Origin: a virus
Direction: 5' to 3' (one strand)
Virus record (IMG/VR): IMGVR_UViG_3300030389_004018
Coordinates: 1-49,069 of that record
DNA length: 49,069 nucleotides
Shown: positions 11,757-47,026 of the stretch, piece by piece
How positions within the stretch are numbered: position 1 is the first letter of the stretch
Layout of the letters: each line of letters starts with the position of its first letter
The notes under the pieces: generated by a model
The model's input: the letters and a program-made list of their open reading frames with translations, nothing else
The model's database searches: none
What the model was told of the DNA's origin: nothing
Made by a program: the position numbers and the translations under genes

Positions 11757-12407
11757 ATGAAAATATTTTTAGACACTGCTGATACAACCGCAATACAGGA
11801 AGGATTCAACACAGGTTTAATTGATGGTGTCACAACCAATCCCACACTCATTAAAAAAAGTGGAAGAGATCCAGAGACAGTATATAAAGAACTGATTGAT
11901 ATGGGAGTACCAGACATCAGCATGGAAGTTGTCGGTAATCGAAAGGAAATGTATAGAGAAGGTGAAAGACTTGCGAAAAAATTTGGAAGTTATGCGACTA
12001 TTAAAGTTCCTTGTACACCTGATGGACTTGCAGTTTGTAGACAGTTAAAAAAATTAATAATTCGAGTTAATGTAACACTTATATTTTCACCATCACAAGC
12101 AATATTAGCAGCAAAGGCAGGAGCGACATACATATCACCTTTTGTTGGAAGAGTTGATGATAATTCTTTCGGTGGTCTATGCCTTATCAAAGACATCGCA
12201 AATATATTTTCAAAACAAAATTGGAAGAGGACTGAAATATTAGGAGCATCAATTCGTAATGTTCGTGATGTAGGACGTGCATTTGAGTATGGTGCAAATA
12301 TATGCACTATACCACCAACTGTTTTTAACAAGATGTATAATCATATTTTAACTGATAAAGGATTAGAACTCTTTGATAATGACTGGAAATCCGTACAAAA
12401 TGTATAG
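11757..12407 (+). CDS. talC: Transaldolase (TalC type)
   Basis: Encodes 216 residues, the short TalC/fructose-6-phosphate aldolase subfamily. It interconverts sedoheptulose 7-phosphate plus glyceraldehyde 3-phosphate with erythrose 4-phosphate plus fructose 6-phosphate in the pentose phosphate pathway. Key residues seen are D6, N28 (TTNPT) and Schiff-base K83 (TIKVPCT). Cyanophages use it to push carbon through the host pentose pathway for NADPH and ribose. There is no strong ribosome binding site, and expression probably depends on the long leader upstream. Confidence 0.95.
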   Translation: MKIFLDTADTTAIQEGFNTGLIDGVTTNPTLIKKSGRDPETVYKELIDMGVPDISMEVVGNRKEMYREGERLAKKFGSYATIKVPCTPDGLAVCRQLKKLIIRVNVTLIFSPSQAILAAKAGATYISPFVGRVDDNSFGGLCLIKDIANIFSKQNWKRTEILGASIRNVRDVGRAFEYGANICTIPPTVFNKMYNHILTDKGLELFDNDWKSVQNV

Positions 12408-15327: not shown

Positions 15328-15662
15328 AAGAAACAAGACCTTGGGGATCCTATGAAGTTATAAATCAAGGATCAAGATATAAAGTAAAATGTATAGAAGT
15401 TGCTGCTGGATTGAGTTTGTCTCTTCAAAGACATACTCATCGAGCAGAGCATTGGGTCGTTGTTGAAGGAACAGCGCTCGTACACATTGATGGTGAAAAA
15501 AAATTAGTGATTGAAAATGAAAGCACCTTTATCCCTGTTGGTATTAAACATAGATTAGAAAATCCTGGTAGAATACCACTTAAGATAATCGAAGTTCAAA
15601 GTGGTGCTTATTTGGAAGAAGATGATATAGAAAGATTTGAAGATGATTATGGGAGATCCTAA
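15324..15662 (+). CDS. manA: Mannose-6-phosphate isomerase, type II cupin domain
   Basis: Encodes 112 residues equal to the C-terminal cupin of ManC/type II phosphomannose isomerases, which convert fructose 6-phosphate to mannose 6-phosphate. Hallmarks are [29 protein letters not shown] with metal-binding His/Glu, [13 protein letters not shown] and a [18 protein letters not shown] end. The guanylyltransferase half of ManC is absent, so GDP-mannose would need a host enzyme. It feeds the GDP-mannose 3,5-epimerase downstream. Confidence 0.88.
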
Positions 15663-23503: not shown

Positions 23504-24120
23504 GTAAAAAAATTTTTATTGATTGTGGAACACATTTATTTCAAGGTTTATGTGAATTCGTTCAAAAATATAAAATTGATGAAACATGGGAGTGTTATTC
23601 ATTTGAATCTAATCCTATTACCTTTAAATTATCTCAGGATAATTATAAAACATTAACTGAAAGTTGGGGATTAAATATAAAACATTTCAATAAAGCTGTT
23701 TATACAGAAGAAACAAAATTAAAAGTACATTGTTCCAAAGATGAGTGGGGTGAAAATGATTTTGATTACATTAGTGCAGGTTCAAATATTCTTTTAAATG
23801 CACCAGATTATGATGATATATCTAAGGCAGCATTTCATTATAAAGATGAAGATATACTTGTAGATACTATAGATTTTTGTGATTTTTTACAGAAAACTTG
23901 TAAAAAAGAAGATTATGTTATAATTAAAATGGACATTGAAGGATCAGAATTTTATGTTCTTCCTCAATTAATAGAGAAGAATTTATTTCATCTTATTGAT
24001 GATATGAGTGTTGAATTTCATGAAAGATTTTTTGAACCGAAATCAAAATACAAGAAACTTAAAGAAGAATATAAGAAAATTTTTTCTGAACATAATATTA
24101 TAATTGAGGAGTGGAAATGA
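23500..24120 (+). CDS. FkbM-family methyltransferase
   Basis: Encodes 206 residues. IDCGTH near the N-terminus, ECYSFESNP (motif for SAM ribose), VDTIDFCDFL and IIKMDIEGSEFYVL (motif IV) are diagnostic of FkbM O-methyltransferases, which commonly methylate sugars of surface polysaccharides. It is coupled to both neighbours by ATGA overlaps. Confidence 0.88.
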   Translation: MSKKIFIDCGTHLFQGLCEFVQKYKIDETWECYSFESNPITFKLSQDNYKTLTESWGLNIKHFNKAVYTEETKLKVHCSKDEWGENDFDYISAGSNILLNAPDYDDISKAAFHYKDEDILVDTIDFCDFLQKTCKKEDYVIIKMDIEGSEFYVLPQLIEKNLFHLIDDMSVEFHERFFEPKSKYKKLKEEYKKIFSEHNIIIEEWK

Positions 24121-25787
24121 TAAAAAAGCATTATTTATCTGTAGCATCTATATTTAAAAATGAAAGTTGGGGATTGAAAGAATGGTTAGATCATTACAGT
24201 TTTCATGGGGTAGATCATGTTTATTTGGTAAATGATTTTAGTAATGACGAGTATTTAACAATTCTTCAACCTTATATTGATAGTGGTTTTGTAACATTGT
24301 TTCATAATGATATATCTGAAATGTATGTTGGTAGGCAAATTCATATTAACAATAAATTTTTCAAACCAATTCTTAACGAAACAAGATGGATTGCAAACAT
24401 AGATCTTGATGAATATCTTTATAGTCCAAAATATATAGATCTAAAGAAAATATTTTCCCAATATGAATCTTTTGGTGGTGTTGTTGCAAATTGGGTATGG
24501 TTTAATTCTAATGGTCATGTAAAACAACCATCTTCAATTGTAAAGTATTTTACTAAAAGATGTGAATATGATTCTTCTGTTATTTTAGATTCTCCTACAA
24601 GAGGAAAAGAATTTGTTAAATTCGATGCACCAAAAATGATTTTAAATACTGATTTTAAAATTAATTCTTTTGATATTCATACTGCACAGATTGATGGAAA
24701 AATTATAAATTTATCTTATAAGGGTTTAGATGATCCTCTATTGTTAATTAATCATTATCAGTTACAGTCTCAGGAATATTGGAAAAAAATAAAAATGAAT
24801 CGAACTGATATGAATCATATAAATCCTCTTCGTGATATGAATGAACATAAAACGATGGATATTGGAGATATTGAGGATACTCGTTTATGGGATCAGAATA
24901 AAAATATTAGTTCTGGTTATAGTGGAGTAATTGGAATGAATAATCTTGGTAGAAATGGTAGGTTAGGAAATCAGATGTTTCAATATGCTGCTCTAGTAGG
25001 TATCGCCAAGCAGTGTGAATTTGATTTTAGAATACCAGATCATTCTAATGCACCATATTTTGATTATAAATCTGGATCAAATATTATAACTGAATATCAT
25101 CAATTACAACATTGTTTTGATATGATTTACTGTGGAGATAGATATGGTTTAATTGATGGTGATGAAGTTGAATTGCATGAATCTCATGAGTTTTGTGAGG
25201 ATTTATTTGAAGAGTGTCCTAATCATATAACCTTAAATGGATACTTTCAATCTGAAAAATATTTTAAGAATGTTGAGAAGTTAATTCGATTAGATTTTAC
25301 ATTTAAAAAGAATATTATAGATGAGGTTCATAAACATTTTGGAAATTATTTTTACCAAAAACCAGTATCTATTTTAGTAAGAGATTTTAATCCTGAATTT
25401 GATTATCCTAATTGCGAAAATAATCATATTAATATTCCTATGGAGTATTATAAAAAATGTATCAATATTTTAGGAGAGCATAGAACTTATATTATCTGCT
25501 CTAATAATATTGATATGTGTAAGGAGCAGGATGTATTTCAAGGAGATAATTTTATCTTTAATGAGGTTATTCCTGATAGCATATATAAAGGACACTTTGA
25601 TTTGTGTTTAATTTCTAGTTGCCAAGATTTTATTATCTCTAATAGCACTTTTGGATGGTGGGGTGCTTGGTTAGGAACTGGAAAGAATAAGAGAGTTCTT
25701 ATACCAGAACCTTGGTATGGTCCAGGACTTTCTCATATCAACACCAATGATTTGTATCCAGAACAATGGGAGGTTGTGAAATGGTAA
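24117..25787 (+). CDS. Two-domain glycosyltransferase: GT92-like plus GT11-like
   Basis: Encodes 556 residues. Residues 1-260 look like a GT92/Glyco_tranf_2_4 domain (ASIFKNESWGLKEWLDHY, HVYLVNDFSND, and NIDLDEYL with a DLD metal site at 96-98). Residues 272-556 form a GT11 domain (GRLGNQMFQYA at 281-291, SNSTFGWWGAWLG at 508-520). However, the donor motif HxRRGD of GT11 is replaced by SILVRDFNPEF (418-428), so fucosyl transfer may be lost or altered. The start ATG overlaps the previous stop and follows GAGGAGTGG. Confidence 0.82.
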   Translation: MIKKHYLSVASIFKNESWGLKEWLDHYSFHGVDHVYLVNDFSNDEYLTILQPYIDSGFVTLFHNDISEMYVGRQIHINNKFFKPILNETRWIANIDLDEYLYSPKYIDLKKIFSQYESFGGVVANWVWFNSNGHVKQPSSIVKYFTKRCEYDSSVILDSPTRGKEFVKFDAPKMILNTDFKINSFDIHTAQIDGKIINLSYKGLDDPLLLINHYQLQSQEYWKKIKMNRTDMNHINPLRDMNEHKTMDIGDIEDTRLWDQNKNISSGYSGVIGMNNLGRNGRLGNQMFQYAALVGIAKQCEFDFRIPDHSNAPYFDYKSGSNIITEYHQLQHCFDMIYCGDRYGLIDGDEVELHESHEFCEDLFEECPNHITLNGYFQSEKYFKNVEKLIRLDFTFKKNIIDEVHKHFGNYFYQKPVSILVRDFNPEFDYPNCENNHINIPMEYYKKCINILGEHRTYIICSNNIDMCKEQDVFQGDNFIFNEVIPDSIYKGHFDLCLISSCQDFIISNSTFGWWGAWLGTGKNKRVLIPEPWYGPGLSHINTNDLYPEQWEVVKW

Positions 25788-26576: not shown

Positions 26577-27404
26577 ATGATGAATCTTAAACAATGCACC
26601 TTTATTATTCCTATAAGGATTGAAAGTGAAGATAGGATGCGTAATGTTATTACAGTTCTTTGTTATCTTTTAGAAAATTTTGATACAAAAGTTATTTTAA
26701 AAGAAGTAGACACTGAATCTGTATTTGAAAAAGAAGTATTACCACAGATTAAAGATTATCTTGGAGATGCTATCAATAATCTTACACATGTCTTTGAACA
26801 ATCAGATGATCCTGTATTTTATAGAATGAAGATTATAAATGAGATGCTTGATATATCTGATACACCAGTAATTTCTAATTACGATTGTGATGTTTTATTC
26901 AAACCAGAGACATATGTTAAATCAGTTAAGATGGTTGAGAGTGGATATGATATGGTGTATCCTTATGGATTTGGTGAGTATCAGAAGCAGGTATTTGTTG
27001 ATGATAGTGATGTGAGTGAGTTTCTCTCTAACGATTTTGATTTTGATATTCTTGATAAGAAGTCAAAAATGTATGATGCTCAGTACGGACATGTTCAATT
27101 TGTAAATAGAAAGTCTTATATTGAAGCAGGAATGGAGAATGAAAACTTTAGGGGTTCATCACCAGAGGATAAGGAGAGATTTTATAGATTTGATAAAATG
27201 GGGTATAATATTGGTAGAATAAATGATAAAGTGTATCATTTAGAACATAGTAGAGGTAGGAATTCTTGGCCTAATTCTGTTCAAGGAAATCCATATATGC
27301 AAGAAAACTTTAATGTATGGGAATCTATTCAGAATATGTCTGGAGAAGAATTGAAACAATACTATTCTAGTCAGAAGTATCTTAAAAAGTATGTTAGTTG
27401 CTAG
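26577..27404 (+). CDS. GT-A glycosyltransferase (GT2/galactosyltransferase-like)
   Basis: Encodes 275 residues. FIIPIRIESEDRMRN begins the fold, SNYDCDVLF holds the DXD metal site, and ENFRGSSPEDKERFYRFDKM then YHLEHSRGRNS are the C-terminal acceptor and His motifs seen in chondroitin-type and galactosyltransferase-like GT-A enzymes. Sugar and linkage unknown. It overlaps the kinase gene by 14 nt. Confidence 0.75.
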   Translation: MMNLKQCTFIIPIRIESEDRMRNVITVLCYLLENFDTKVILKEVDTESVFEKEVLPQIKDYLGDAINNLTHVFEQSDDPVFYRMKIINEMLDISDTPVISNYDCDVLFKPETYVKSVKMVESGYDMVYPYGFGEYQKQVFVDDSDVSEFLSNDFDFDILDKKSKMYDAQYGHVQFVNRKSYIEAGMENENFRGSSPEDKERFYRFDKMGYNIGRINDKVYHLEHSRGRNSWPNSVQGNPYMQENFNVWESIQNMSGEELKQYYSSQKYLKKYVSC

Positions 27405-28338
27405 TTGTCCATTAAGGATTTCACTATTTGGTGGATCTACAGATAATCCTTATTTTGTAGAGAAGTATGGGAGAGGTTCTGTCATTAGTTTTACTTCTAA
27501 TCTTAAAACATATGTAACGATTAGTCAGGATAAGATAGGATATAATAAGCAACAACATAAGTATCTTATAAACTATTCAAAAAGAGAAGAAGTTTCTACA
27601 ATAGATGAGATACAAAATGAAGTTGTGAAAACTGTGTTGAAACATTATAACATGCCTCCAGTTCAGGTTACTCTTACAAGTGATGCTTATTCACAGGGAA
27701 GTGGACTTGCTTCTTCATCATCATATACAATAAGTCTCATCAAGGCTTGTTGTTTATTTTTAGGAAAATCTATTACAGATAATGCTGCTTGTAAACTTGC
27801 ATTCGACTTAGAAAGAATTTACAATCCTTATTGTGGTTATCAAGATCCATATGGTTGTGGTGTTGGGGGTTTTAAAAGGATTGAGTTCATGAGTAGTGAT
27901 TGTATTAAGTATGAATTTTTATCTACTGATATATTTGATTATTACGATACTCATCTTGTGTTTACTGGTGTTACTAGAAACTCTAAAAAAATCCTTAAAA
28001 GCATCACAGAAAATTTAGATAAAGTTAAACCATTATTAAAAACTTGTGATGATGCATATGAAACACTTATTAATAAAGACTATGATAGGTTTTTATATTT
28101 TTTAGGTAAGAGTTGGTCTCAAAAGAAAAAGACATCTTCAACGATTGTAGAGAATAAGACTGTTTGTGAGATTGATTCTGTATTAGAAAATAACGATGCT
28201 GTATGTGCTCATAAATTATGTGGAGCAGGAAATGGTGGATTTTTCTTAACATTTTCTGAAAAGAATACATTGACGATTCCTTATGAATCTGTTAAAATAG
28301 ATGTTGAAACGGATGGTGTGTATGGTAAATCCATTTAG
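27391..28338 (+). CDS. hddA: GHMP kinase, heptose 7-phosphate kinase (HddA-like)
   Basis: Encodes 315 residues. PLRISLFGGSTD (N-terminal motif), GSGLASSSSYT (phosphate-binding motif II) and KLCGAGNGGFFL (motif III) identify a GHMP kinase; the combination fits D-glycero-D-manno-heptose 7-phosphate kinases. It would make heptose 1,7-bisphosphate. The isomerase, phosphatase and nucleotidyltransferase of the same route follow immediately. Confidence 0.85.
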   Translation: MLVASCPLRISLFGGSTDNPYFVEKYGRGSVISFTSNLKTYVTISQDKIGYNKQQHKYLINYSKREEVSTIDEIQNEVVKTVLKHYNMPPVQVTLTSDAYSQGSGLASSSSYTISLIKACCLFLGKSITDNAACKLAFDLERIYNPYCGYQDPYGCGVGGFKRIEFMSSDCIKYEFLSTDIFDYYDTHLVFTGVTRNSKKILKSITENLDKVKPLLKTCDDAYETLINKDYDRFLYFLGKSWSQKKKTSSTIVENKTVCEIDSVLENNDAVCAHKLCGAGNGGFFLTFSEKNTLTIPYESVKIDVETDGVYGKSI

Positions 28339-28828
28339 TGAATATATTAATACTCTTGAGTCTGCTCATATGGAAGTTGAGTTTTTCAAATTTCAGAAAG
28401 CATTTTATACTCATAAAAGAATAATCATATTGGGTAATGGTGGTAGCAATTCAGTTGCTTCACACATTTCTCAAGATTACATGAAGTTTCATAATAAGAA
28501 AGTTTCAATTCTTTCTGATCCCTCCATGATCACAATGCTTACTAATGACTTTGGTTATGAGTTTGCATATCAAAAGTTTTTAGAGTATTATGTAGAACAT
28601 GATACTTTAGTTGTTATAATTAGTTCTGGTGGAGAATCTCCAAATATGTTAAAGTGTGTAGATTGGTGTGAGGATAATAAAATATCCTATGGTGTATTGA
28701 CGGGATTTAAGAATGATAATACAATAAGAACGGTTGCAAAAAATGCACTTTGGAACTATCATATTGATAGTATTAGTTATGGTGTAGTCGAGTGTGTACA
28801 CCAAATATTTTTACATGGAGTGGTATGA
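28322..28828 (+). CDS. gmhA: SIS-domain sugar isomerase (GmhA-like)
   Basis: Encodes 168 residues. LGNGGSNSVASHISQDY and VVIISSGGESPN are the two phosphosugar-binding loops of SIS isomerases. The pattern and neighbours fit sedoheptulose 7-phosphate isomerase, the first step to NDP-heptose. The ATG at 28322 is chosen, with ATG 28313 also in frame. It overlaps the kinase by 17 nt and the next gene by four bases. Confidence 0.8.
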   Translation: MVNPFSEYINTLESAHMEVEFFKFQKAFYTHKRIIILGNGGSNSVASHISQDYMKFHNKKVSILSDPSMITMLTNDFGYEFAYQKFLEYYVEHDTLVVIISSGGESPNMLKCVDWCEDNKISYGVLTGFKNDNTIRTVAKNALWNYHIDSISYGVVECVHQIFLHGVV

Positions 28829-29568
28829 AGTATTGTTTTGATTTGGATGGAACTATTTGTGATACTCCATTACGTGAAGAAGATTTAAAACCAGGTTACC
28901 TAGAATCAACACCCTTCCCATTCATGGTAGAACAGATTAACAGATTATTTGATGAAGGAAATCATATAATTATAATGACTGCTAGAGGTAGAGGATCAGG
29001 AATAGATTGGACAAGTCTGACTGTACAACAATTAGATAGATGGGGAGTTAAGTATCATGAATTAGAACCTATGTTTCATAAACCTACTGCTGATATTTTT
29101 GTAGATGATAAGGGCATAAATGTAGAGGAGTGGAAGAAAACTGTACCACCCAAGAAAGGTATTATTGCAGGTGCTTTTGATGTAATTCATCCTGGTTATA
29201 TTCGAATGTTTAACGAAGCAAGAGATTATTGTAATCATCTTACGGTAGCACTTCATGAAGATCCATCTACAGAGAGGAAACATAAATTAAAACCAGTTCA
29301 AACAGTAGAAGAAAGGAAAGAAATATTACTGGCCATACAATACGTAGATGATGTGGTAGTATATCAAAAAGAGGAGACTTTTCACGAATACCTTAAAGAT
29401 TATGATATAAGATTCTTAGGAACTGACTATCGTGATGGGAGTTATACAGGAAAAGATCTTAGTATTGATATTATATGGTTAACTAGAAAACATGATTATT
29501 CAACAACTCGTATGAAAAGATTAATTCATGAATCAATTTTAAAAATGAACGGAGTGGACTATGATTAG
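28825..29568 (+). CDS. Fusion: HAD phosphatase plus sugar nucleotidyltransferase
   Basis: Encodes 247 residues. The N-terminal HAD-like domain has CFDLDGTICDT (D6, D8), MTARGRG and a final FVDDKG (D94, D95). The C-terminal domain starts AGAFDVIHPGYIRMF (HxGH-like motif H122) and ends near DYSTTRMKR (STTR motif), the marks of an HldE/RfaE-type or cytidylyl nucleotidyltransferase. Together they could remove the heptose 7-phosphate and then activate the sugar. Fusing the two steps in one protein is unusual. The nucleotide used (ADP, GDP or CDP) is not clear from sequence. Confidence 0.75.
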   Translation: MKYCFDLDGTICDTPLREEDLKPGYLESTPFPFMVEQINRLFDEGNHIIIMTARGRGSGIDWTSLTVQQLDRWGVKYHELEPMFHKPTADIFVDDKGINVEEWKKTVPPKKGIIAGAFDVIHPGYIRMFNEARDYCNHLTVALHEDPSTERKHKLKPVQTVEERKEILLAIQYVDDVVVYQKEETFHEYLKDYDIRFLGTDYRDGSYTGKDLSIDIIWLTRKHDYSTTRMKRLIHESILKMNGVDYD

Positions 29569-30445
29569 TTTAGTTACTGGTGGTGCAGGATTCATAGGAT
29601 CTAATCTTGTAGATTACTTACTAGAACAAGGACATAATGTTGTTTGTATCGATAATGAAAGTGCGAACAATGAAAAGTTTTATTGGAATGAAAAAGCATG
29701 GAATGTAAACGCTGATATAACTGATTATAAAACTATGAAAAATGCTTTCACGAATGTAGATTATGTTTTTCATTTAGCAGCAGAGTCAAGATTACAATCA
29801 GCAATACAAAATCCAATTGAAGCAGTTAATAAAAATTGCGTAGGCACGACAGTTATGTTGCAATGTGCAAGGGAAGCAGGAGTTAAACGGTTTGTATATT
29901 CTTCAACTTCTTCTGGTTATGGAAACAATCCATATCCAAATGTTGAAACTCAACCAGATGATTGTTTGAATCCATATTCGGCATCTAAAATTTCAGGTGA
30001 GAAATTCTGTAAAATGTATACTGATCTTTATGGATTAGAAACAGTTACTCTTCGATACTTTAATGTGTTTGGAGAGAGGTCTCCTGCAAGGGGTCAGTAT
30101 GCTCCTGTAATTGGAATATTCCAGAGACAAAGAGATGCAGGTGAGTCACTTACAATCGTTGGTGACGGGTCACAGAGAAGGGACTTTATACATGTTAAAG
30201 ATGTAGCAAGAGCAAATTATATTGCAGCAACTGTTCCTCTAAAAGGACATGAAGGTGAAGTATTTAATGTTGGTAGTGCTAATCCCTACTCTATTCAACA
30301 AATTGCTGATTCGATATCAAACAACCAAACTTACATTCCAAAACGAAATGGTGAAATGGAGACTACTTTTGCTGATATAACTAAGATAGGTGAAGTCATG
30401 GGATGGAAACCAGAAATTGATGTAATTGATTGGATCTATGGATAG
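29561..30445 (+). CDS. NAD-dependent epimerase/dehydratase
   Basis: Encodes 294 residues, extended SDR: TGGAGFIGSNL near 6-16, STSSGYG, PYSASKISGEKFC (YxxxK), and RYFNVFGERSPARGQYAPV in the substrate loop typical of UDP-glucose/UDP-N-acetylglucosamine 4-epimerase-like enzymes. It directly follows the heptose genes, so it may act on an activated heptose or on a hexose nucleotide. It overlaps both neighbours by 8 nt. Confidence 0.82.
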   Translation: MISLVTGGAGFIGSNLVDYLLEQGHNVVCIDNESANNEKFYWNEKAWNVNADITDYKTMKNAFTNVDYVFHLAAESRLQSAIQNPIEAVNKNCVGTTVMLQCAREAGVKRFVYSSTSSGYGNNPYPNVETQPDDCLNPYSASKISGEKFCKMYTDLYGLETVTLRYFNVFGERSPARGQYAPVIGIFQRQRDAGESLTIVGDGSQRRDFIHVKDVARANYIAATVPLKGHEGEVFNVGSANPYSIQQIADSISNNQTYIPKRNGEMETTFADITKIGEVMGWKPEIDVIDWIYG

Positions 30446-37195: not shown

Positions 37196-40100
37196 ATGGC
37201 GACGCCAATACGAATAAAAAGATCTGCGGTATCTGGAAAGAGACCACAGTTAACAGATTTACAGGTAGGAGAATTAGCGCTTAATACTTATGATGGATCT
37301 CTTTTCACTGAGAGAGATACTGGTGGAGTTGGAATTGCAACAACTGTAAGTAATCTTACACCATGGACGGAAAGTTATGGTGCATCTTCAATAAGTTACT
37401 TAAATTCGGTTGGAATTGGAACCACTAATCCAGTAGCAAAATTAGATGTTACTGGAGATTCAACCTTTACTGGCAGCATGACTGTTGCGAATGGAAATAT
37501 TATAGGAGATGATGTAACAAATATAAGTGGTATTAATTCAGTAACTGCAACATCATTCTTTGGTGATGGTTCTGGATTAACTAATACTGGTGCAGTATTA
37601 AGTGCAGCATCTGGTTCTCAAAGATTAGTTTTAACAAGTCTTACATCAGGTATTATGACAACCACTGCAACCGATGCAGATTTGTCTTTCAATGCTACGA
37701 GTAATTTATTAAGTGCAGGAAACGCTCAGTTTGATGGTAATGTTTCTATTGGTGGGACATTAACATACGAAGACGTAACTAATATAGATGCAGTTGGATT
37801 AATTACTGCTCAGAGTGGTATTGATGTTACTGGAGGTTCTGTAAGAATTGGTGATAATGCGAGTTATACCGCAAATAGTAATGGTGATAATCTAGTAATT
37901 GGTAGTTTATCTGGTAATCATGGAATTACAATAATCTCTAATAATACTATTTCTAATAACGCTGCAAGTTTATTTTTTGGAGATTCTGGTTCTCCGATAG
38001 CTGGGGCAATTCGATATTTTCATGCTTCTAATTACATGATGTTCCGTGTTGCTGGTGGTGAAAGACTTCGCATCACAGGAACAGGTCACATTGGTATTAA
38101 CAGCTCTTCTCCAACACACGAGTTAGAAGTTCTTGGAGATAGTTCATTAAAAGGTAATTTAAATGTAACAGGTGTTTCAACATTCTCTAATAAAATAGTC
38201 GTAGATACCAGTAGTATATCAGAATTTAAAGGTAATGGAAGAATAAAAATAAGTGGTGCTTCTCAAACCACCAAATTACATTTACAGAGAGGCAGCACTT
38301 CCGATGTTGCAATGAGATTTGAAAATAACCATGGTAGTATTTACGCTGGACTCGCTGCTGGTTTTAATAACAACCAAAGATTTATTATTGGACTAGATGC
38401 TGATTTATCTAATGATCCAATATTAATAGCTAATGAAACTAAGCATGTAATTGTTGGAAGTTCTACTACTGGTGTAACTCTTAGTGGTGCAACAGGTGAT
38501 TTCAAGGCAACTGGTATAGCAACAATCGGAACTGGTGTTACTGTATTAACAAATGGAAATGTATCCATTGGTGGAACCTTAGAACTTTTCAATACAACAG
38601 GAAACCCAAATAATCATCCATCGGAAATTAAACTAAGTACTTTTTCAATAGGTCAGCATAATAATGTTGGCACTATGAAAATCATGAATAATAATGCCAC
38701 AGGGACGTTAATTATTGGTGCTGGTGGTGGAGGAGGATATGGTGGTATTACCCTATTCAATAAAAACTTAAATGCTAAGTATCTGCAAGCAAATAATGAG
38801 GGATCTGTTGATTTATATCATGATGGTGATTTACGTTTTGGGACGACTGGTTATGGAGTTACAGTCTTTGGTACTACTGAAACTCAACAATTAAATGTAA
38901 CTGGATTCACAACATTATCTACTGGCACCAAATTCTTCCAACATACACCACGAATTGAGATGCAGGGTAATAGCACTGCACAATTCCAACTTACAAATGC
39001 AACCTCTGGCACCACTCTTAATGATGGAATGGTAATGGGATTTTCATCTAGTAGTAAAGTTGGTTTTATCAATGTAAATGAGAGTGCTCATGGATTTATA
39101 TTAAAAACTAGTGGAAATGCAACTACTGCTGAGAGAATTAATATTTCTGGTGTTGGAACAGTAAGCATAAGAAAAGGCACCACTGAAGAAATGATTACTG
39201 CAAGACCAGATGGAGCTGTTGAATTATATCATGATAATGTCAAGCGTCTTGCGACCACAAATTCGGGAGTTGATATAACTGATAATTTAAATGTTTCTGG
39301 TGTATCAACATTTAATAATCAGATATTTACAAATAAAATATCAAATTCAGGTATAATAACCTCAAATATGATTCATCTCACAGGTGGATCATTTACTGCT
39401 CCCGCTCCTGGTGGTGATACAAGAAATGATACTGCAATTGTTGTAAATGAAAACTTTGGCATTTATGCATTAGAATTACAAGTAGGTTCAGGTAATAATG
39501 ATAAATTTTTAAGAAGAATTATTGAAAAAGAAAATAATATTCTAACCATAGGTCAGGATGATACCTCTCTCTTTGCTGCAATAAACATAAGACCAGGTAA
39601 TACTGGAACTGTAAGTATTGGAAATAGTGGTGCAGTCAGTCTGGTAGGAGTATCTGAGGATGGAACTACTGCCGAAATAGAAAAATTAAGAACTGTTGGA
39701 TCTGGAATTACAGTTTTTGGAACAACCGAAACTCAAAAATTAAATGTTACTGGTGTTTCTACCTTTGTAGGAAATGCTCAGTTTAATGGTAATATCGGTA
39801 TCGGAACTACTAATCCACAGCAAGAACTTCATATACAAAATAATGTTCCTATCATAAGATTCACAAAACAAAATGGAACAACAGACAATAAAGACTGGAA
39901 TATTGGTGCTGGAACTCCTCAAATTTTAAGAATACAAGCAATCAGAGATGATGGTGGTGGTGGTGGACAATTATTTGATTTTTATAGAAATGCTGGTGAT
40001 GTAGAAGAATTCCGTGGAAAATCAGGAGCTGCTTATTGGTTTACAATAAACAATGATACTAGAAGAGTCGGTATTGGAACTGATAATCCACAAGCACTAT

Positions 40101-43100
40101 TAGATGTTTCGTCAGACAGTCCTAATCTTAGAATAACAGATTTGAATAGTTTGGTTGGTGCTGGTAATACATCATATACTCAATTAGCAAATTTAAATGG
40201 AAATACTTATGTTTATACGAGAGCAAATGAGAATAATGGTAGTTATCTAATAGGTGGTCATGGTAATGGTGTATTTGACGAGTTTATTCGCATTACATCA
40301 GCAGGTAATGTTGGTATCGGAACTGCTAATCCACTTGGAACTGGTGCACTCGCAAATAATACTGCAACACTAGCAGTTGGTATTTTAACTGCAAATACAA
40401 TTTATGGAAATGTCGTTGGTGGTCTCTCTCCTACTGGAGACGTATTTATCGGTGGTAATTTAGATGTAGACGGACAAACAGATCTAGATGTATTAAATGT
40501 TTCAGATACGGCAACATTTACTGGAAATGTAAGTGCTTCAAATTTAATAGTATCACGTGATGGAAATGCAAATATTAGTTTAGTAGATACTGGGCATGGA
40601 TTTAGTGCTTCAACTATTGGAATATCAAATGGTGGTCGAGATTTAGCCATAACAGCACCAAGAGATATACGTTTAAAACCTTCAGGTGGTGAGGATGGGA
40701 TAGTTATTGAAAACGGCGGAGCCGTGGAATTGTATCACAATAATGTCAAGAAAGCAGAAACATCAGTAGGCGGACTTCAAATAACAGGAACTACTGATAC
40801 TGATCAGTTAAATGTATCAGGTGTTTCAACATTCGTGGGTAATGCTGAATTTAAAGGAAATGTATCAATCGCAGGTACATTAACCTATGAAGATGTAACA
40901 AATATAGATTCAATTGGTATTATAACAGCACAGACAGATATTCACGTTGGTGCAGGTATTTCAGTTGTTGGTGTTGGGTCTTTCGGTTCATTAGTAGTTG
41001 GTGGTGGGACAACATTACAAAGTTCTACAACTACAGGCACGGGTAAAGCATTAAGAATAATATCACCTTCAGGATATATTGAAGTTGGTGCACAAAATAC
41101 CAGTAACGCTCATTTCTATACAGATAGACAAAGGTTTTATTTTAATAAAAAAATAGTAGTTGATGGAGGTGCAATTGGTTCCTTCAATGAAGATTTAGTA
41201 CTTGTAACTGATGGAAGTGAAGAAAGAATAAGAATCAAAAATGATACAGGTCACGTTGGTATAAACAGCACAGAACCTGAAACAATGTTAGATGTCGTTG
41301 AAAGTTCTACAAGTCGAAATTGGACACCAACGAGTGGAGTTACGGCGTTATTTGAACGTAATAATGGTACTTTAATTACACTAGTTAGTAATAATAGTTC
41401 TGTTGTTGGAATTGATTTTGGTGATTCGAATGATAATAATGCTGGATTCATTCACTATGACCATAGTGATAATAGTATGTTCTTTAGAACAAATACTGAT
41501 GAACAACTTCGCATCACATCAACAGGTAATGTTGGTATCGGAACTGATAATCCCACAGAAAAACTTCATTTAGCAGCAGACTCTGCATTTCAAATTCTTT
41601 TAAAAAGAAGTGGTGCTTCTCCTAGTGAGGTAATATTCGGGAATGAAGGTAATACTGCCAGAATCTCAAATAATACAAATGGAATTGATTTTCGAACAGG
41701 TTCGACTCCATCATCTTCGATGCTTATTGACCAGAATGGTAAAGTCGGGATCGGAACTGATGATCCTGATGAGTTATTGGAATTAGGTGGAACTGACCCC
41801 GTATTAAAACTTCATGATGTTGCTGGAGGTTCAACTCACGGATTAAAGGTGAGTCATGACGGTGTAAATGCCACAATTAATTTAGAATCTGCTGGTTTAT
41901 TATCCATAAAACAAACAAATGGTAATGCTGCTGCTAATGGAATTGCATTTAATACAGGGAATGTTGATACAGAAAAAGTTCGCATCACAGGTATTGGTTC
42001 AGTTGGTATTGGAACCAATGATCCAGATGGTCAATTACACATTTCTTCTGGAGCAGGTGCTAATGGTGATTGTCGTGTTTATATTGAGGCAGACGCAAAC
42101 AATACTGACGAGGGAAGCAATCCATTTATTATCTTCAAAAATGATGGAGGTTATGAAAATGCTTCTGTTTGGTGTGGAAATGCTCCTGATGGAGAGGGTG
42201 CTAATGACAATAGTTTAAATCTTTCTGCAGCAACAGATGTTAATGGTGGTATTAGATTTTTCACTAGTGATACTGCTGGTGGTTGGGAAACTGCACCAGA
42301 AAGAGCTCGTATCACATCAGATGGAGAACTTTTAATAAATGCAGTCACTGAGAGATCATACGTTGATGGTGCTGGATATACTCAAACTCCAAAACTACAA
42401 GTAGAATCAAATAGTAATGTCGATACTGCAATATCATTAAGATATAATTCTGGTGGTGGTGCTGATGTTAGAAGAGCATCATTTATATTTGCAAGAACTG
42501 CCGATGGAACTGCAGTATCAAATGACAGTGTTTTAGGTGAAGTTCTCTTTATGGGAGAGGGCAACAGTACTCTGGAAAAAGCAGCATCCATTCGTGCAGA
42601 AGTTGATGGAACACCAGGCACAAATGATATGCCTGGTAGATTGATATTCTCTACAAGTGATGATGGTTCGGATTCTCCGACAGAAAGACTTCGCATTACA
42701 TCAACAGGTAATATCGGTATCGGAACTATTGATCCTGCATATACTTTAGATTTTGGTAAATCATCATCGTCAACAATCAGACTTGTAAGTGGAAATGATA
42801 AAACAGCAATACGTATTGGTGCTGGTGGTAACGCTAGTGATGTAACTTTAATTAGAGTTGATGGTGTAACTGCAAATCATGATGGGGAATCTGATGATAG
42901 TGCATCTGGGTTCTCATTTAAATATGTGGGATCAGGAGCTGGAGTTAATAATAGATTTTCAATTTGTCCAGATAATCAAACAGGGACACAATTTGAAGGA
43001 GTTACAGTTCTTCAAGATGGTAAAGTCGGTATCGGAACTGCTAGTCCTGATGCAATACTTCATGCAATAGGTGAGATTAAAGTTGATGCCTCTGATTATG

Positions 43101-46100
43101 CAAGAGTTTTATATGCCCGTAATGATACAAACTTATGGTCTGTTGGATTAAGAGACACTGATGATTTCTGGTTCTTTAGAGAAAGTGGTAGTGGAAATGC
43201 TATTTTTCAACATGGTAATGTTGGTATCGGAGAGACAACACCAACAGCATCCTTAGAGATAGCAGCAACAGATAAAGCAGGATTAAGAATAGTTGATAGT
43301 CATATTAATAATAACGCACCTTATATTGAAGTTATTGGAAAAAGAAATGGTCTTAATAATAGTCAATCTTTCGGTGGTCAGATATTTTTAGCTGGAAATG
43401 TAGGTGATGCAGGAGTTCATACTGGAAAAATTTTAGGTGCCGTTCTCTTTGGTGGTAATCATACAGATGGATCTTTATCTAATATTGCATATCCAGCTTC
43501 AATAGCTGGTGTTTCTGGTGGTAGTTTTGATTCTGTAACAGATATGCCGACAGATTTGATATTTCGTACTGGATCCACAGGTAGAACTCCAACAACACCT
43601 AATGTGGCTAGTGGTGATGAAAAATTCCGCATCACATCAGATGGTAATTTAATACACACATCAGTTAATAAAACAATTAGTTTAGTATCAACTCAAAACG
43701 CAGTAAACGCTGGTACAAAAATCGCATTCTTTGGTGCAAATCGATATACCACTGATCAAGAATTTGCATCAATCAAAGGTTTACTTAAAAATAATTCAGG
43801 TGGTTCTGGAAAACAAAAAGGTCACTTGTTATTCACAGTTGGAAGTAATTCCCACCAACACATAATGGATGATGATGGTAATGTTGGTATCGGAACTGAT
43901 GACCCATCATCAAAATTACATGTTTTTGGAAATGCAAATTTCACTGGTGGTGCAGATTTTGGGGGAAATGTAGATATTCAGGGAGATTTGAGTGTAAGTG
44001 GAACATTAACCTATGAAGACGTAACAAATATTGATTCGGTTGGTATTATAACAGCACAATCGGGTATTCATGTGGTTGGGACAGCTTCATCAGTTGGTAT
44101 TGGAACTAGTGCTCCAATAGTAAAACTACATGTTGTCGGAAATTCTAAATTTGAAGGTACTGGAAGATTTACCAATGATGTAACCATTAGTAGACCTAAC
44201 ACTGCGACATTAACAGTTGAGACATCTGCATCTTCTAGTTATGATGCATTGATTAAAATACGTGGTGCAAGAACAGGTCTCACCAATGATACATCAATGT
44301 TGCAGTTTGATAATAGCACAAATACACCCTATGTCATGGCGCAGATCGCTGCACAAGATCCAGTTGCAGATCACGGAGAAAAAAAAGGTCAATTAATTTT
44401 TAGAACTAATTCTGGTAGTAACCTTACTGAAAAAATGCGTATCGAGTCAGGTGGTAATATTGGTATCATAACCACTAATCCAAATGCAAAGTTACATATT
44501 GGACCTTTGAATGGTGATACAACACATCATTTATATCTTGCTTCTGGAAATAATGACTACGGAATAGTAATCGATACACATGATTTTGGTGCAGCAAATG
44601 TTCCATTAAGAATACTTACAAGAAGTAACAATAATGATACTGAAAGAGTTAGAGTATTGCAATCTGGTAATGTTGGTATTGGAATAACGAATCCAGCAGA
44701 TATTTTAACAATTAGTGGAGGTGGTGCTGCCGATAATGTTTCTTTAAGGATTATTGATCCGACTAATGCTGATTTTGGATCACATTTTAGTTACTTTGAA
44801 AATGACACTGATGGAACTAACTTAAATGAAGTCGTCGTTGGTGGAGTTACAGATAATGTAAAAAATAAAGTAATCAGAATTGCTAGAGATACTGGTGATG
44901 ATGTCATGTTCATCAATACCTCTAAGAGAGTTGGTATTGGATCTATGAGTCCAAAAGCAAAATTAGATATTTTAGACACTGGTTCTCAAGGTATTCTTAT
45001 TTCCTCTGGATCAACACAAGCAAATGATACTAATAAAGCAATCAGAGTAAGAAATGGAATTGGAATTACCGCAGATACTTTCGTTGTAAGTCATAGAGGA
45101 CAAGTTGGAATTAATACTTCTGGTGTTAGTGGTGTTAATGTTGGTATCGGCACCATTACTAACAGCGATGTCAGACTTAAAGTTACACATGATGGACTTA
45201 ATGAAGTTATACAGCAGTGGGGAGGTCATCAAGGTCCAATTGCTGGTCACAGATTTATGGAGTTATATTCTCCAGAGAATGATGCTAATACTGACTACTT
45301 TAAATTTAAAACAGGCAATGCAATTAAATTTAGAATTGATAGCATAGATGCAATAGCAATGAATTCAGATGGTAAAGTCGGTATCGGAACTGATAACGTA
45401 CAAGAAAAACTTCATGTACGTGGTAATGGTAATGTAACATCTTTTGTTGAAGCTGTTGCTGGTGATGCAATACTTGATTTATCAAATACTGGAGATGGTA
45501 ATTATAGCGGAATAAACTTTACAAGGCAAAGAAGCACTGGATCAGTTGTTGGTGGATCAATTTGGATGCCATCAGTTACTGCAAATAATAGTGCATTATT
45601 GTATCTACAAACACAATCTGCTTCAGCACAAGCAGGTCAGAGTGGTGCATTAAGCGATAATAATGGTGTTAGAGTAAAATTAGCATCACAACCTGGTGGT
45701 GTTGCTGCAGATAGTGCATTTAGTGTTGAAGTAGGTGCTTCAGAAAGACTTCGCATCACATCTACTGGTCAAGTTAAAATTACTGGAGTCGATGATCAAG
45801 ATAATTTAGTAGTTAATGGTGGTGGTAGCCAATTTGCAGTTCATCAAGATGATACAGATGGTGAAGTTAGTTTAAGAGCACAAGATGGAAGTGGAAATAA
45901 TTACACAAAGTACATGACTTTCTTCACTGAAAATGGTTCAGGACCAGAAGAAAGACTTCGTATCACAGAACCAGGTAATGTCGGTATCGGAATTACAACA
46001 CCACAGGCAAAATTAGACGTTTATGGAGATATAAGGGTACGTGATAAAATTGTATCTAGTCAGTATTCAGAAAGTTTCTTAGATTTTGATGATGATAATT

Positions 46101-47026
46101 CATCTACGCCATTCCCCACAGGCACAAATAATGTTACTCTTGCATCAATCTCTGGTTTAAGTTTAGTATATGACTCGAATAATAATGATAATAATGGATT
46201 TATGATCGCACATGGGAATGTGAATACTGAAAGTTCCACACCTGTGATGGTCATAGATGAAAAGGATGATGTTGGTATCGGAACCATACATCCAGAAGCA
46301 AAACTTGAGGTAAATGTAGGCACTGCTATTACTGCTTTTGATGTTAAAGGAAGTCAGGGACAATTATTCTCTGTAACGAATAGTTTGTCTTCAGGATCTA
46401 TATTCTCTGTAAATGATATTAGTGGATCACCAAGTATTGATGTTGACGCAGATGGGACAATTCAATTAGCTCCAAATTTACCATCAGAAAAAGTTGGTAT
46501 TGGAATCACAAATCCATCTACAAAATTACATGTTAATGGTGGTATAACCGCAACTACGTACAATGGTGGTACTTATGCAAAATACACTGGAGCAGCTGGT
46601 GATAGTGCAAATATTAATACTGCGAGTTCAACATTAATAGATTGGATGCAAACAAATACAGAAGTATTCAGTGCTCCAACTAACACCACTTTTACAAATA
46701 CTGGAACCGAGGTTACAATTCCCACCACTGGAATTTATCAAGTTATATTCAATGGATTCATACATGGAAATGGTGGTGGCCAAAGAAATAATATGACCTT
46801 CAGATTTAGAGTAAATGGATCTGATGTGAATACAGATGTGAGTCTTAATAACTATATACGTGGAGCTGGAATACACACTACATCTAGTGTAAATCTTAAT
46901 GCGATACTTAGTTTAAATGCATCCGATACACTTGGTGTTGCAAGTAAACGAGAATCAACTATTACTGCTTCTTGTGTGTTACGTAAAGATCAATGTTCTC
47001 TATCACTTGTACATATAGGATCATAA
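37196..47026 (+). CDS. Giant repetitive tail fibre-like protein (3276 aa)
   Basis: The N-terminus (IRIKRSAVSGKRPQLTDLQV, GELALNTYDG, TERDTGG) is the conserved attachment segment of cyanophage tail fibres. The body consists of about 25 beta repeats, each with a core like RITSTGNVGIGTDNPxxKLxV, plus three copies of a GTLTYEDVTNIDxxGxITAQ module and several VELYHDN modules. The C-terminal 150 residues resemble a C1q/TNF-like trimer head (TEVTIPTTGIYQVIFNGFIH, near the end CSLSLVHIGS). No endosialidase-type chaperone domain is seen. It is probably a trimeric receptor-binding fibre; no frameshift is present. Confidence 0.88.
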   Translation: MATPIRIKRSAVSGKRPQLTDLQVGELALNTYDGSLFTERDTGGVGIATTVSNLTPWTESYGASSISYLNSVGIGTTNPVAKLDVTGDSTFTGSMTVANGNIIGDDVTNISGINSVTATSFFGDGSGLTNTGAVLSAASGSQRLVLTSLTSGIMTTTATDADLSFNATSNLLSAGNAQFDGNVSIGGTLTYEDVTNIDAVGLITAQSGIDVTGGSVRIGDNASYTANSNGDNLVIGSLSGNHGITIISNNTISNNAASLFFGDSGSPIAGAIRYFHASNYMMFRVAGGERLRITGTGHIGINSSSPTHELEVLGDSSLKGNLNVTGVSTFSNKIVVDTSSISEFKGNGRIKISGASQTTKLHLQRGSTSDVAMRFENNHGSIYAGLAAGFNNNQRFIIGLDADLSNDPILIANETKHVIVGSSTTGVTLSGATGDFKATGIATIGTGVTVLTNGNVSIGGTLELFNTTGNPNNHPSEIKLSTFSIGQHNNVGTMKIMNNNATGTLIIGAGGGGGYGGITLFNKNLNAKYLQANNEGSVDLYHDGDLRFGTTGYGVTVFGTTETQQLNVTGFTTLSTGTKFFQHTPRIEMQGNSTAQFQLTNATSGTTLNDGMVMGFSSSSKVGFINVNESAHGFILKTSGNATTAERINISGVGTVSIRKGTTEEMITARPDGAVELYHDNVKRLATTNSGVDITDNLNVSGVSTFNNQIFTNKISNSGIITSNMIHLTGGSFTAPAPGGDTRNDTAIVVNENFGIYALELQVGSGNNDKFLRRIIEKENNILTIGQDDTSLFAAINIRPGNTGTVSIGNSGAVSLVGVSEDGTTAEIEKLRTVGSGITVFGTTETQKLNVTGVSTFVGNAQFNGNIGIGTTNPQQELHIQNNVPIIRFTKQNGTTDNKDWNIGAGTPQILRIQAIRDDGGGGGQLFDFYRNAGDVEEFRGKSGAAYWFTINNDTRRVGIGTDNPQALLDVSSDSPNLRITDLNSLVGAGNTSYTQLANLNGNTYVYTRANENNGSYLIGGHGNGVFDEFIRITSAGNVGIGTANPLGTGALANNTATLAVGILTANTIYGNVVGGLSPTGDVFIGGNLDVDGQTDLDVLNVSDTATFTGNVSASNLIVSRDGNANISLVDTGHGFSASTIGISNGGRDLAITAPRDIRLKPSGGEDGIVIENGGAVELYHNNVKKAETSVGGLQITGTTDTDQLNVSGVSTFVGNAEFKGNVSIAGTLTYEDVTNIDSIGIITAQTDIHVGAGISVVGVGSFGSLVVGGGTTLQSSTTTGTGKALRIISPSGYIEVGAQNTSNAHFYTDRQRFYFNKKIVVDGGAIGSFNEDLVLVTDGSEERIRIKNDTGHVGINSTEPETMLDVVESSTSRNWTPTSGVTALFERNNGTLITLVSNNSSVVGIDFGDSNDNNAGFIHYDHSDNSMFFRTNTDEQLRITSTGNVGIGTDNPTEKLHLAADSAFQILLKRSGASPSEVIFGNEGNTARISNNTNGIDFRTGSTPSSSMLIDQNGKVGIGTDDPDELLELGGTDPVLKLHDVAGGSTHGLKVSHDGVNATINLESAGLLSIKQTNGNAAANGIAFNTGNVDTEKVRITGIGSVGIGTNDPDGQLHISSGAGANGDCRVYIEADANNTDEGSNPFIIFKNDGGYENASVWCGNAPDGEGANDNSLNLSAATDVNGGIRFFTSDTAGGWETAPERARITSDGELLINAVTERSYVDGAGYTQTPKLQVESNSNVDTAISLRYNSGGGADVRRASFIFARTADGTAVSNDSVLGEVLFMGEGNSTLEKAASIRAEVDGTPGTNDMPGRLIFSTSDDGSDSPTERLRITSTGNIGIGTIDPAYTLDFGKSSSSTIRLVSGNDKTAIRIGAGGNASDVTLIRVDGVTANHDGESDDSASGFSFKYVGSGAGVNNRFSICPDNQTGTQFEGVTVLQDGKVGIGTASPDAILHAIGEIKVDASDYARVLYARNDTNLWSVGLRDTDDFWFFRESGSGNAIFQHGNVGIGETTPTASLEIAATDKAGLRIVDSHINNNAPYIEVIGKRNGLNNSQSFGGQIFLAGNVGDAGVHTGKILGAVLFGGNHTDGSLSNIAYPASIAGVSGGSFDSVTDMPTDLIFRTGSTGRTPTTPNVASGDEKFRITSDGNLIHTSVNKTISLVSTQNAVNAGTKIAFFGANRYTTDQEFASIKGLLKNNSGGSGKQKGHLLFTVGSNSHQHIMDDDGNVGIGTDDPSSKLHVFGNANFTGGADFGGNVDIQGDLSVSGTLTYEDVTNIDSVGIITAQSGIHVVGTASSVGIGTSAPIVKLHVVGNSKFEGTGRFTNDVTISRPNTATLTVETSASSSYDALIKIRGARTGLTNDTSMLQFDNSTNTPYVMAQIAAQDPVADHGEKKGQLIFRTNSGSNLTEKMRIESGGNIGIITTNPNAKLHIGPLNGDTTHHLYLASGNNDYGIVIDTHDFGAANVPLRILTRSNNNDTERVRVLQSGNVGIGITNPADILTISGGGAADNVSLRIIDPTNADFGSHFSYFENDTDGTNLNEVVVGGVTDNVKNKVIRIARDTGDDVMFINTSKRVGIGSMSPKAKLDILDTGSQGILISSGSTQANDTNKAIRVRNGIGITADTFVVSHRGQVGINTSGVSGVNVGIGTITNSDVRLKVTHDGLNEVIQQWGGHQGPIAGHRFMELYSPENDANTDYFKFKTGNAIKFRIDSIDAIAMNSDGKVGIGTDNVQEKLHVRGNGNVTSFVEAVAGDAILDLSNTGDGNYSGINFTRQRSTGSVVGGSIWMPSVTANNSALLYLQTQSASAQAGQSGALSDNNGVRVKLASQPGGVAADSAFSVEVGASERLRITSTGQVKITGVDDQDNLVVNGGGSQFAVHQDDTDGEVSLRAQDGSGNNYTKYMTFFTENGSGPEERLRITEPGNVGIGITTPQAKLDVYGDIRVRDKIVSSQYSESFLDFDDDNSSTPFPTGTNNVTLASISGLSLVYDSNNNDNNGFMIAHGNVNTESSTPVMVIDEKDDVGIGTIHPEAKLEVNVGTAITAFDVKGSQGQLFSVTNSLSSGSIFSVNDISGSPSIDVDADGTIQLAPNLPSEKVGIGITNPSTKLHVNGGITATTYNGGTYAKYTGAAGDSANINTASSTLIDWMQTNTEVFSAPTNTTFTNTGTEVTIPTTGIYQVIFNGFIHGNGGGQRNNMTFRFRVNGSDVNTDVSLNNYIRGAGIHTTSSVNLNAILSLNASDTLGVASKRESTITASCVLRKDQCSLSLVHIGS
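37741..37827 (+). repeat. TYEDVTNID module, copy 1
   Basis: Encodes SIGGTLTYEDVTNIDAVGLI and TAQSGIDV. Nearly the same segment appears at 40861 and 43991. Confidence 0.85.
40861..40947 (+). repeat. TYEDVTNID module, copy 2
   Basis: Encodes SIAGTLTYEDVTNIDSIGII and TAQTDIHV, preceded by a TFVGNAEFKGNV segment also shared with copy 1. Confidence 0.85.
43991..44077 (+). repeat. TYEDVTNID module, copy 3
   Basis: Encodes SVSGTLTYEDVTNIDSVGII and TAQSGIHV. The DNA is also close to copy 2, so recombination between copies is possible. Confidence 0.85.

Follow-up and report, generated by a model that had tools for sequence, protein, structure and literature searches.

Four genes of a cyanophage sugar island predicted to make and finish an activated heptose

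The virus record IMGVR_UViG_3300030389_004018, analysed here over its entire length of 49,069 nucleotides (the window), holds among its cyanophage genes those for a ribonucleotide reductase small subunit and a ferredoxin-dependent bilin reductase as well as talC and psbA, and, at ~15.6–31.2 kb, a sugar island comprising a dehydratase, epimerases, a UDP-galactopyranose mutase and glycosyltransferases of several families. Inside this island, four genes on the + strand (27391–30445) encode an HddA-like kinase, a GmhA-like SIS isomerase, a fusion of a HAD phosphatase with a nucleotidyltransferase (HAD=NT) and a GalE-like epimerase, and our analysis suggests that these genes probably make and finish an activated heptose. 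New here are the two-in-one enzyme and the finding that relatives of the set also carry a transaldolase for the starting sugar. The features in question are:

27391..28338, + strand: HddA-like GHMP sugar-1-kinase, 315 aa (NF049969, PDB 3k85, GHMP motifs)
28322..28828, + strand: GmhA-like SIS ketose/aldose phosphate isomerase, 168 aa from the ATG at 28322; the open reading frame opens at 28301 (GmhA models, PDB profile, Foldseek)
28825..29148, + strand: HAD phosphatase domain, N-terminal part of the fusion, domain boundary approximate (PDB 9iqw)
29149..29568, + strand: nucleotidyltransferase (NT) domain of the HldE-C/TagD type, C-terminal part of the fusion (PF01467, Foldseek)
29561..30445, + strand: GalE-like SDR epimerase, 294 aa, presumed nucleoside diphosphate (NDP)-heptose epimerase (GalE profile, position after the fusion)
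11757..12407, + strand: talC transaldolase, possible source of sedoheptulose 7-phosphate, outside the operon (TAL_FSA E=8e-51, fsa_talC_mipB 202 bits)

The open reading frames of kinase, isomerase and fusion overlap end to end, the isomerase stop and the fusion start sharing the letters ATGA, and the epimerase starts at 29561. Homologues from the Synechococcus phage SynMITS9220M01 served to correct two starts, which are probably 28322 for the isomerase and the ATG at 28825 for the fusion. Promoter-like sites occur at chance level.

Enzyme families of the four genes

The original prediction had placed four domains at 27391–29568, in three overlapping + strand frames with the last two fused, and matches in Pfam, NCBIfam, PDB and PHROG bear this out; its gene set lacked the SDR at 29561–30445, which is part of the set. 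By sequence, the kinase is HddA-like: besides a Pfam match to GHMP_kinases_N (E=4e-9), its best NCBIfam model is HddA (NF049969, E=6e-28, 98 bits, with the next model at 57 bits), its best PDB matches are D-glycero-D-manno-heptose kinases (3k85, E=4e-24, and 4n3o), and its GHMP motifs GSGLASSSS, GYQDPYG and GAGNGGF are largely kept in relatives. The 98 bits lie under the HddA equivalog cut-off of NCBIfam (600 bits), as do the 173 bits of a bacterial kinase encoded beside GmhB (locus L326). Assignment to the PfkB kinases of P-SSM2-type clusters was rejected, the family being a different one.

For the isomerase, both profile and predicted fold indicate membership of the GmhA class, apart from the arabinose-5-phosphate isomerases. 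Its best NCBIfam models are GmhA (49.5 bits, under the equivalog cut-off of 265), the first 13 matches of a PDB profile search are phosphoheptose isomerases of the GmhA type (up to 120 bits, 1tk9) while KdsD reaches 31 bits, and its AlphaFold model (pLDDT confidence 94.5) superimposes on GmhA 5i01 with a template modelling (TM) score of 0.89 in a Foldseek search of the PDB, KdsD and KpsF following far behind. The isomerase groups with GmhA and the kinase with HddA.

The HAD half of the fusion (structure model of the fusion: pLDDT 92.3) is matched by PHROG 1238 and by PDB 9iqw, that is, AfhF, titled D-arabinose 1,5-diphosphate phosphatase (35% identity, E=2e-9, profile 76 bits), and its catalytic residues D6, D8, T52, K86 and D94/D95 are invariant in 60 sequences. 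Its sequence places it outside the GmhB family: no GmhB model is among its NCBIfam matches, and the C-x-H...C-x-C-type zinc-binding loop of GmhB, seen in loci L319, L323 and L326, is absent. An AfhF query matched 370 phage records, and in many phage records the PHROG 1238 genes named ‘phosphoheptose isomerase’ (for example NC_024794, 27303–27689, and PSSM2_311 of P-SSM2) are AfhF-family HAD phosphatases, not isomerases. On the AfhF pathway, nothing was found in the literature searched.

The NT half is a Cytidylyltransferase-like domain (PF01467, E=1e-12) whose first Foldseek match is 1coz (TM 0.85 by target), followed by HldC 5xf2. In the NT domain of one relative, L124, the HldE-C type leads TagD by 81 to 54 bits and the motif reads HAGH. 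A role as HddC guanylyltransferase was rejected, as PF01467 is of another superfamily than the HddC-type NTP_transferase. The epimerase scores 175 bits with GalE profiles and 120 bits with those of the heptose 6-epimerase, so that its identification as HldD (ADP-heptose 6-epimerase) was likewise rejected; its active-site loop, STSSGYG, is without the DE pair of the dehydratase-like SDR at 15637 (STDEVFG), and its gene directly follows the fusion in most contigs.

Conservation and genomic neighbours

A scan with the kinase yielded 127 relatives in IMG/VR, of which 80 were kept for comparison. The order kinase, isomerase, HAD=NT, epimerase is found in 63 of these 80 contigs, most of the remainder being cut by a contig end or holding one extra gene, and the overlap of isomerase stop and HAD start is the same in 70. 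Once loci that end within 2.5 kb of the kinase, or lack the next genes for that reason, are set aside, the fusion follows the isomerase in all but one of 75 loci, the exception having HAD and NT split. The ratio of nonsynonymous to synonymous substitution rates (dN/dS) is 0.07–0.20 for every domain, and all domains are under purifying selection. An explanation of the set as passenger genes without a role, briefly kept after capture from a host, might appeal to the variation of cyanophage sugar clusters between relatives (PMC7824862), but in view of these ratios, of an order kept in ~75 contigs and of host copies nested in the viral tree rather than the reverse, it is highly improbable.

The fusion was found in five of 400 sampled host-family genomes, all Prochlorococcaceae (L132–L134, L257 and L258), in loci which also hold the remaining genes of the set, the kinase being cut off in one; in L258 the HAD half looks degraded and the NT half intact. 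The neighbours in L133, among them CobD/CbiB, a bacterial sugar transferase and a solute-binding protein, indicate that this locus belongs to an island of the host rather than to a stray phage contig. The five host sequences branch together as one group within the viral sequences of the tree (enclosing group 98/96; nearer nodes are weaker and the bootstrap did not converge), a nesting which suggests transfer from phage to host.

Further evidence comes from related kinases in 53 other viral loci (43 after dereplication), where neighbours within 4.5 kb were recorded. A transaldolase is present in 49, an SIS protein in 49 and both in 48. An NT of the HldE-C/TagD type occurs in 18 of the 53 and an HddC-like nucleotidyltransferase in 20, never both (Fisher p=1.7e-5; p=1.5e-4 for the 43 dereplicated loci); since HddC and MurU models fit these HddC-like proteins similarly well, the label is provisional. 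The transaldolase of one viral locus (L128) passes the TIGR02134 cut-off, and so does that of the bacterial locus L326 for its family, where HddA, an HddC/MurU-like nucleotidyltransferase, an SIS protein, GmhB and the transaldolase stand in a row. Among 20 bacterial regions, seven have a transaldolase near the kinase, and in Pelagibacter (L194) a transaldolase, an SIS protein, an NTase-PfkB (HldE-like) protein and the same HAD type lie close together. This company of transaldolase, isomerase and kinase, in viral loci and in bacterial heptose operons, agrees with the originally predicted heptose route from sedoheptulose 7-phosphate.

Other fusions of steps were seen as well. The 595-kb phage LR756511 (L004) has a kinase=NT fusion with neither SIS nor HAD close by, after which comes an epimerase of the same kind, and a further locus (L309, 8353–9243, – strand) has HAD=SIS in one open reading frame beside a transaldolase, with a kinase and an HddC-like gene upstream on the other strand; both point the same way, in favour of heptose. 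In two marine bacterial genomes (L168 and L183), as read by eye, a standalone HAD adjoins a GmhA-like SIS near NeuB-looking proteins, and HAD–SIS pairs may also serve nonulosonic acid routes.

The original prediction had also linked the set to talC. The gene is indeed in the window, but the link is circumstantial there and direct in relatives with an embedded transaldolase. It lies 15 kb from the set, members of its family occur in 492 phage records, mostly from cyanophages, as against 8 for the kinase, and it is of the fsa_talC type, ~28–31% identical to the operonic transaldolases, all of which argues that talC was not acquired for the operon. An exclusive link between talC and the cassette in cyanophages was rejected, talC being far commoner than the cassette. 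The flanks of the 80 cyanophage-type loci contain no transaldolase; of 25 viral contigs with the cassette, 14 have one each and 11 none, an absence which means little since most of these contigs are fragments. That talC stands in for the operonic transaldolase is an attractive guess.

Proposed route and competing explanations

In the heptose route that we favour, the isomerase would convert sedoheptulose 7-phosphate into an aldo-heptose 7-phosphate, the HddA-like kinase would phosphorylate the latter at C1, the HAD half of the fusion would remove the phosphate at C7, and the NT half would join the heptose 1-phosphate to a nucleotide, for which the family makes ATP or CTP a more likely donor than GTP. 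The GalE-like enzyme would then change one stereocentre, and the glycosyltransferases of the island may transfer the product to a surface or virion glycan; an O-antigen-like or other envelope glycan and a virion glycan are all candidates. The bifunctional HAD=NT would thereby fill the places of GmhB and HddC in bacterial operons.

Several observations weigh against this assignment. The only close solved relative of the HAD is assigned to a pentose bisphosphate. The NT reads HPGY, fixed in 180 NT domains, where most other NT proteins compared keep HxGH, and profiles (rfaE_dom_II 59 bits, TagD 57 bits) cannot separate it from a glycerol-3-phosphate cytidylyltransferase. HddA kinases and HldE-type nucleotidyltransferases normally belong to different routes (alpha GDP and beta ADP, respectively). 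Moreover, heptoses are reported to be absent from cyanobacterial lipopolysaccharide (LPS) (PMC4390846). Finally, the zinc ligands of GmhA, H64/E68/Q175/H183, were reported to be completely conserved, with Q175E inactive (PMC5705639), and the window isomerase has H48/D52/E157/H165, that is, D for E68 and E for Q175, so that two of the four ligands differ. Of the original prediction, the four activities, the fusion and the heptose route are supported, whereas a HAD outside the GmhB family, the zinc ligands and HPGY do not fit it as stated.

The changes in the isomerase quartet and in the NT motif lend themselves to another explanation, a shift to a different substrate (a heptose stereoisomer or other ketose phosphate) giving an unusual NDP-sugar, and the fixation of both in 180 sequences, together with the effect of Q175E on GmhA, is what such a shift would lead one to expect. 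The H/D/E/H quartet, shared by all 180 SIS sequences including that of the window (13 GmhA-like proteins of bacterial contigs have H/E/Q/H), is nevertheless also present in viral SIS proteins adjoining transaldolase, HddA and HddC-like genes and, as read by eye, in those of bacterial L326 and L319, beside GmhB. The quartet is thus a property of a subfamily and not a sign of decay, and we regard a change of substrate as unlikely.

Scarcely better or worse placed, and likewise improbable, is a pentose route in which the isomerase would turn ribulose 5-phosphate into D-arabinose 5-phosphate, kinase and HAD would convert this into arabinose 1-phosphate, and the NT would form NDP-arabinose, as proposed for phages with arabinosyl-hydroxymethylcytosine (arabinosyl-hmC). 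The HAD resembles AfhF, and in those phages, too, the HAD has an isomerase and an NTase-like protein as neighbours. However, the HAD is all that the two modules have in common, for which reason identity with the arabinose module was rejected: the SIS of that module is KpsF/GutQ (111 bits) and its nucleotidyltransferase of the GalU/GlmU type, whereas the window SIS is GmhA-like. A transaldolase, moreover, forms or consumes sedoheptulose 7-phosphate rather than ribulose 5-phosphate, the cassette is surrounded by glycosyltransferases and does not adjoin a DNA polymerase, and a review finds no evidence that the DNA of cyanomyoviruses is modified (PMC2984593). Since arabinose phages share it, the HAD alone decides nothing; it is the families of isomerase and kinase, the viral neighbours and the bacterial operons that lead us to prefer the heptose route.

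It is tempting to speculate further that phages possess a self-contained heptose supply line, fed from central metabolism, of transaldolase, isomerase with altered metal site, kinase and HAD=NT, in which the general talC replaces the operonic transaldolase in cyanophages, heptose is brought to hosts whose LPS is said to lack it, and the operon was later taken up by a host lineage. This wider scenario is tentative, and considerably less likely than the heptose route itself.

Elsewhere in the window, the open reading frame at 24111–25787 has an N-terminal half of GT92/GT2-like type and a C-terminal half resembling GT11 fucosyltransferases, and that at 37196–47026 (3276 aa) possibly encodes a large tail or fibre protein.

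Relation to known systems and implications

The closest known system is that of cultured SynMITS9220M01 (MT408532), where all four genes recur in this order, their proteins being 67–77% identical. Its publication in 2020, which names the kinase, the isomerase and the epimerase and mentions talC (PMC7378029), renders the original description of the set as a new metabolic link too strong, although the published record leaves the HAD=NT fusion hypothetical, without active-site analysis. The bacterial GmhA/HddA/GmhB/HddC-type route (Campylobacter and others) has the same order of steps, an HddA-like kinase and a GmhA-like isomerase; the phage set differs by one HAD=NT for GmhB and HddC, a nucleotidyltransferase of another superfamily and the H/D/E/H site. 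With the ADP-heptose pathway (GmhA, HldE, GmhB, HldD) it shares an NT related to the C-terminal domain of HldE, but its kinase is GHMP and not PfkB, its phosphatase is not GmhB and its epimerase is closer to GalE than to HldD. The arabinosyl-hmC module of Mosigvirus/RB69 phages shares the HAD family, with isomerase and nucleotidyltransferase of other families, and is located between the DNA polymerase and a thymidylate-synthase-like gene. In clusters of P-SSM2, P-TIM68 and S-CAM1, a sugar kinase stands next to NT and HAD genes from related families; these two are, however, separate genes, the kinase is PfkB, and no SIS adjoins them in P-SSM2 and P-TIM68. In P-TIM68 (L003, 2305–4193), a transketolase-like gene adjoins the PfkB kinase, epimerases, NT and HAD, an arrangement that may represent a further way for phages to draw on pentose-phosphate sugars.

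The LPS clusters of P-SSM2 have been described (PMC2984593), cyanophage O-antigen clusters with PfkB kinases and HIGH-type nucleotidyltransferases have been reviewed (PMC7824862), and the broader notion of surface sugars made by cyanophages, perhaps to keep other phages out, is published (PMC7378029, PMC2984593, PMC7824862). The literature searched contained no function for the HAD=NT fusion and no mention of the altered metal site, of a phage trio of transaldolase, SIS and HddA, or of nested host copies.

The gene set is compact, occurs in a cultured phage and lends itself to tests with three proteins. If the heptose route holds true, supplying nucleotides would no longer be the sole possible use of cyanophage talC, the glycans of cyanobacteria or cyanophages would include a sugar not previously known from them, and the several hundred phage genes currently annotated as ‘phosphoheptose isomerase’ (PHROG 1238) would turn out to encode sugar-bisphosphate phosphatases.
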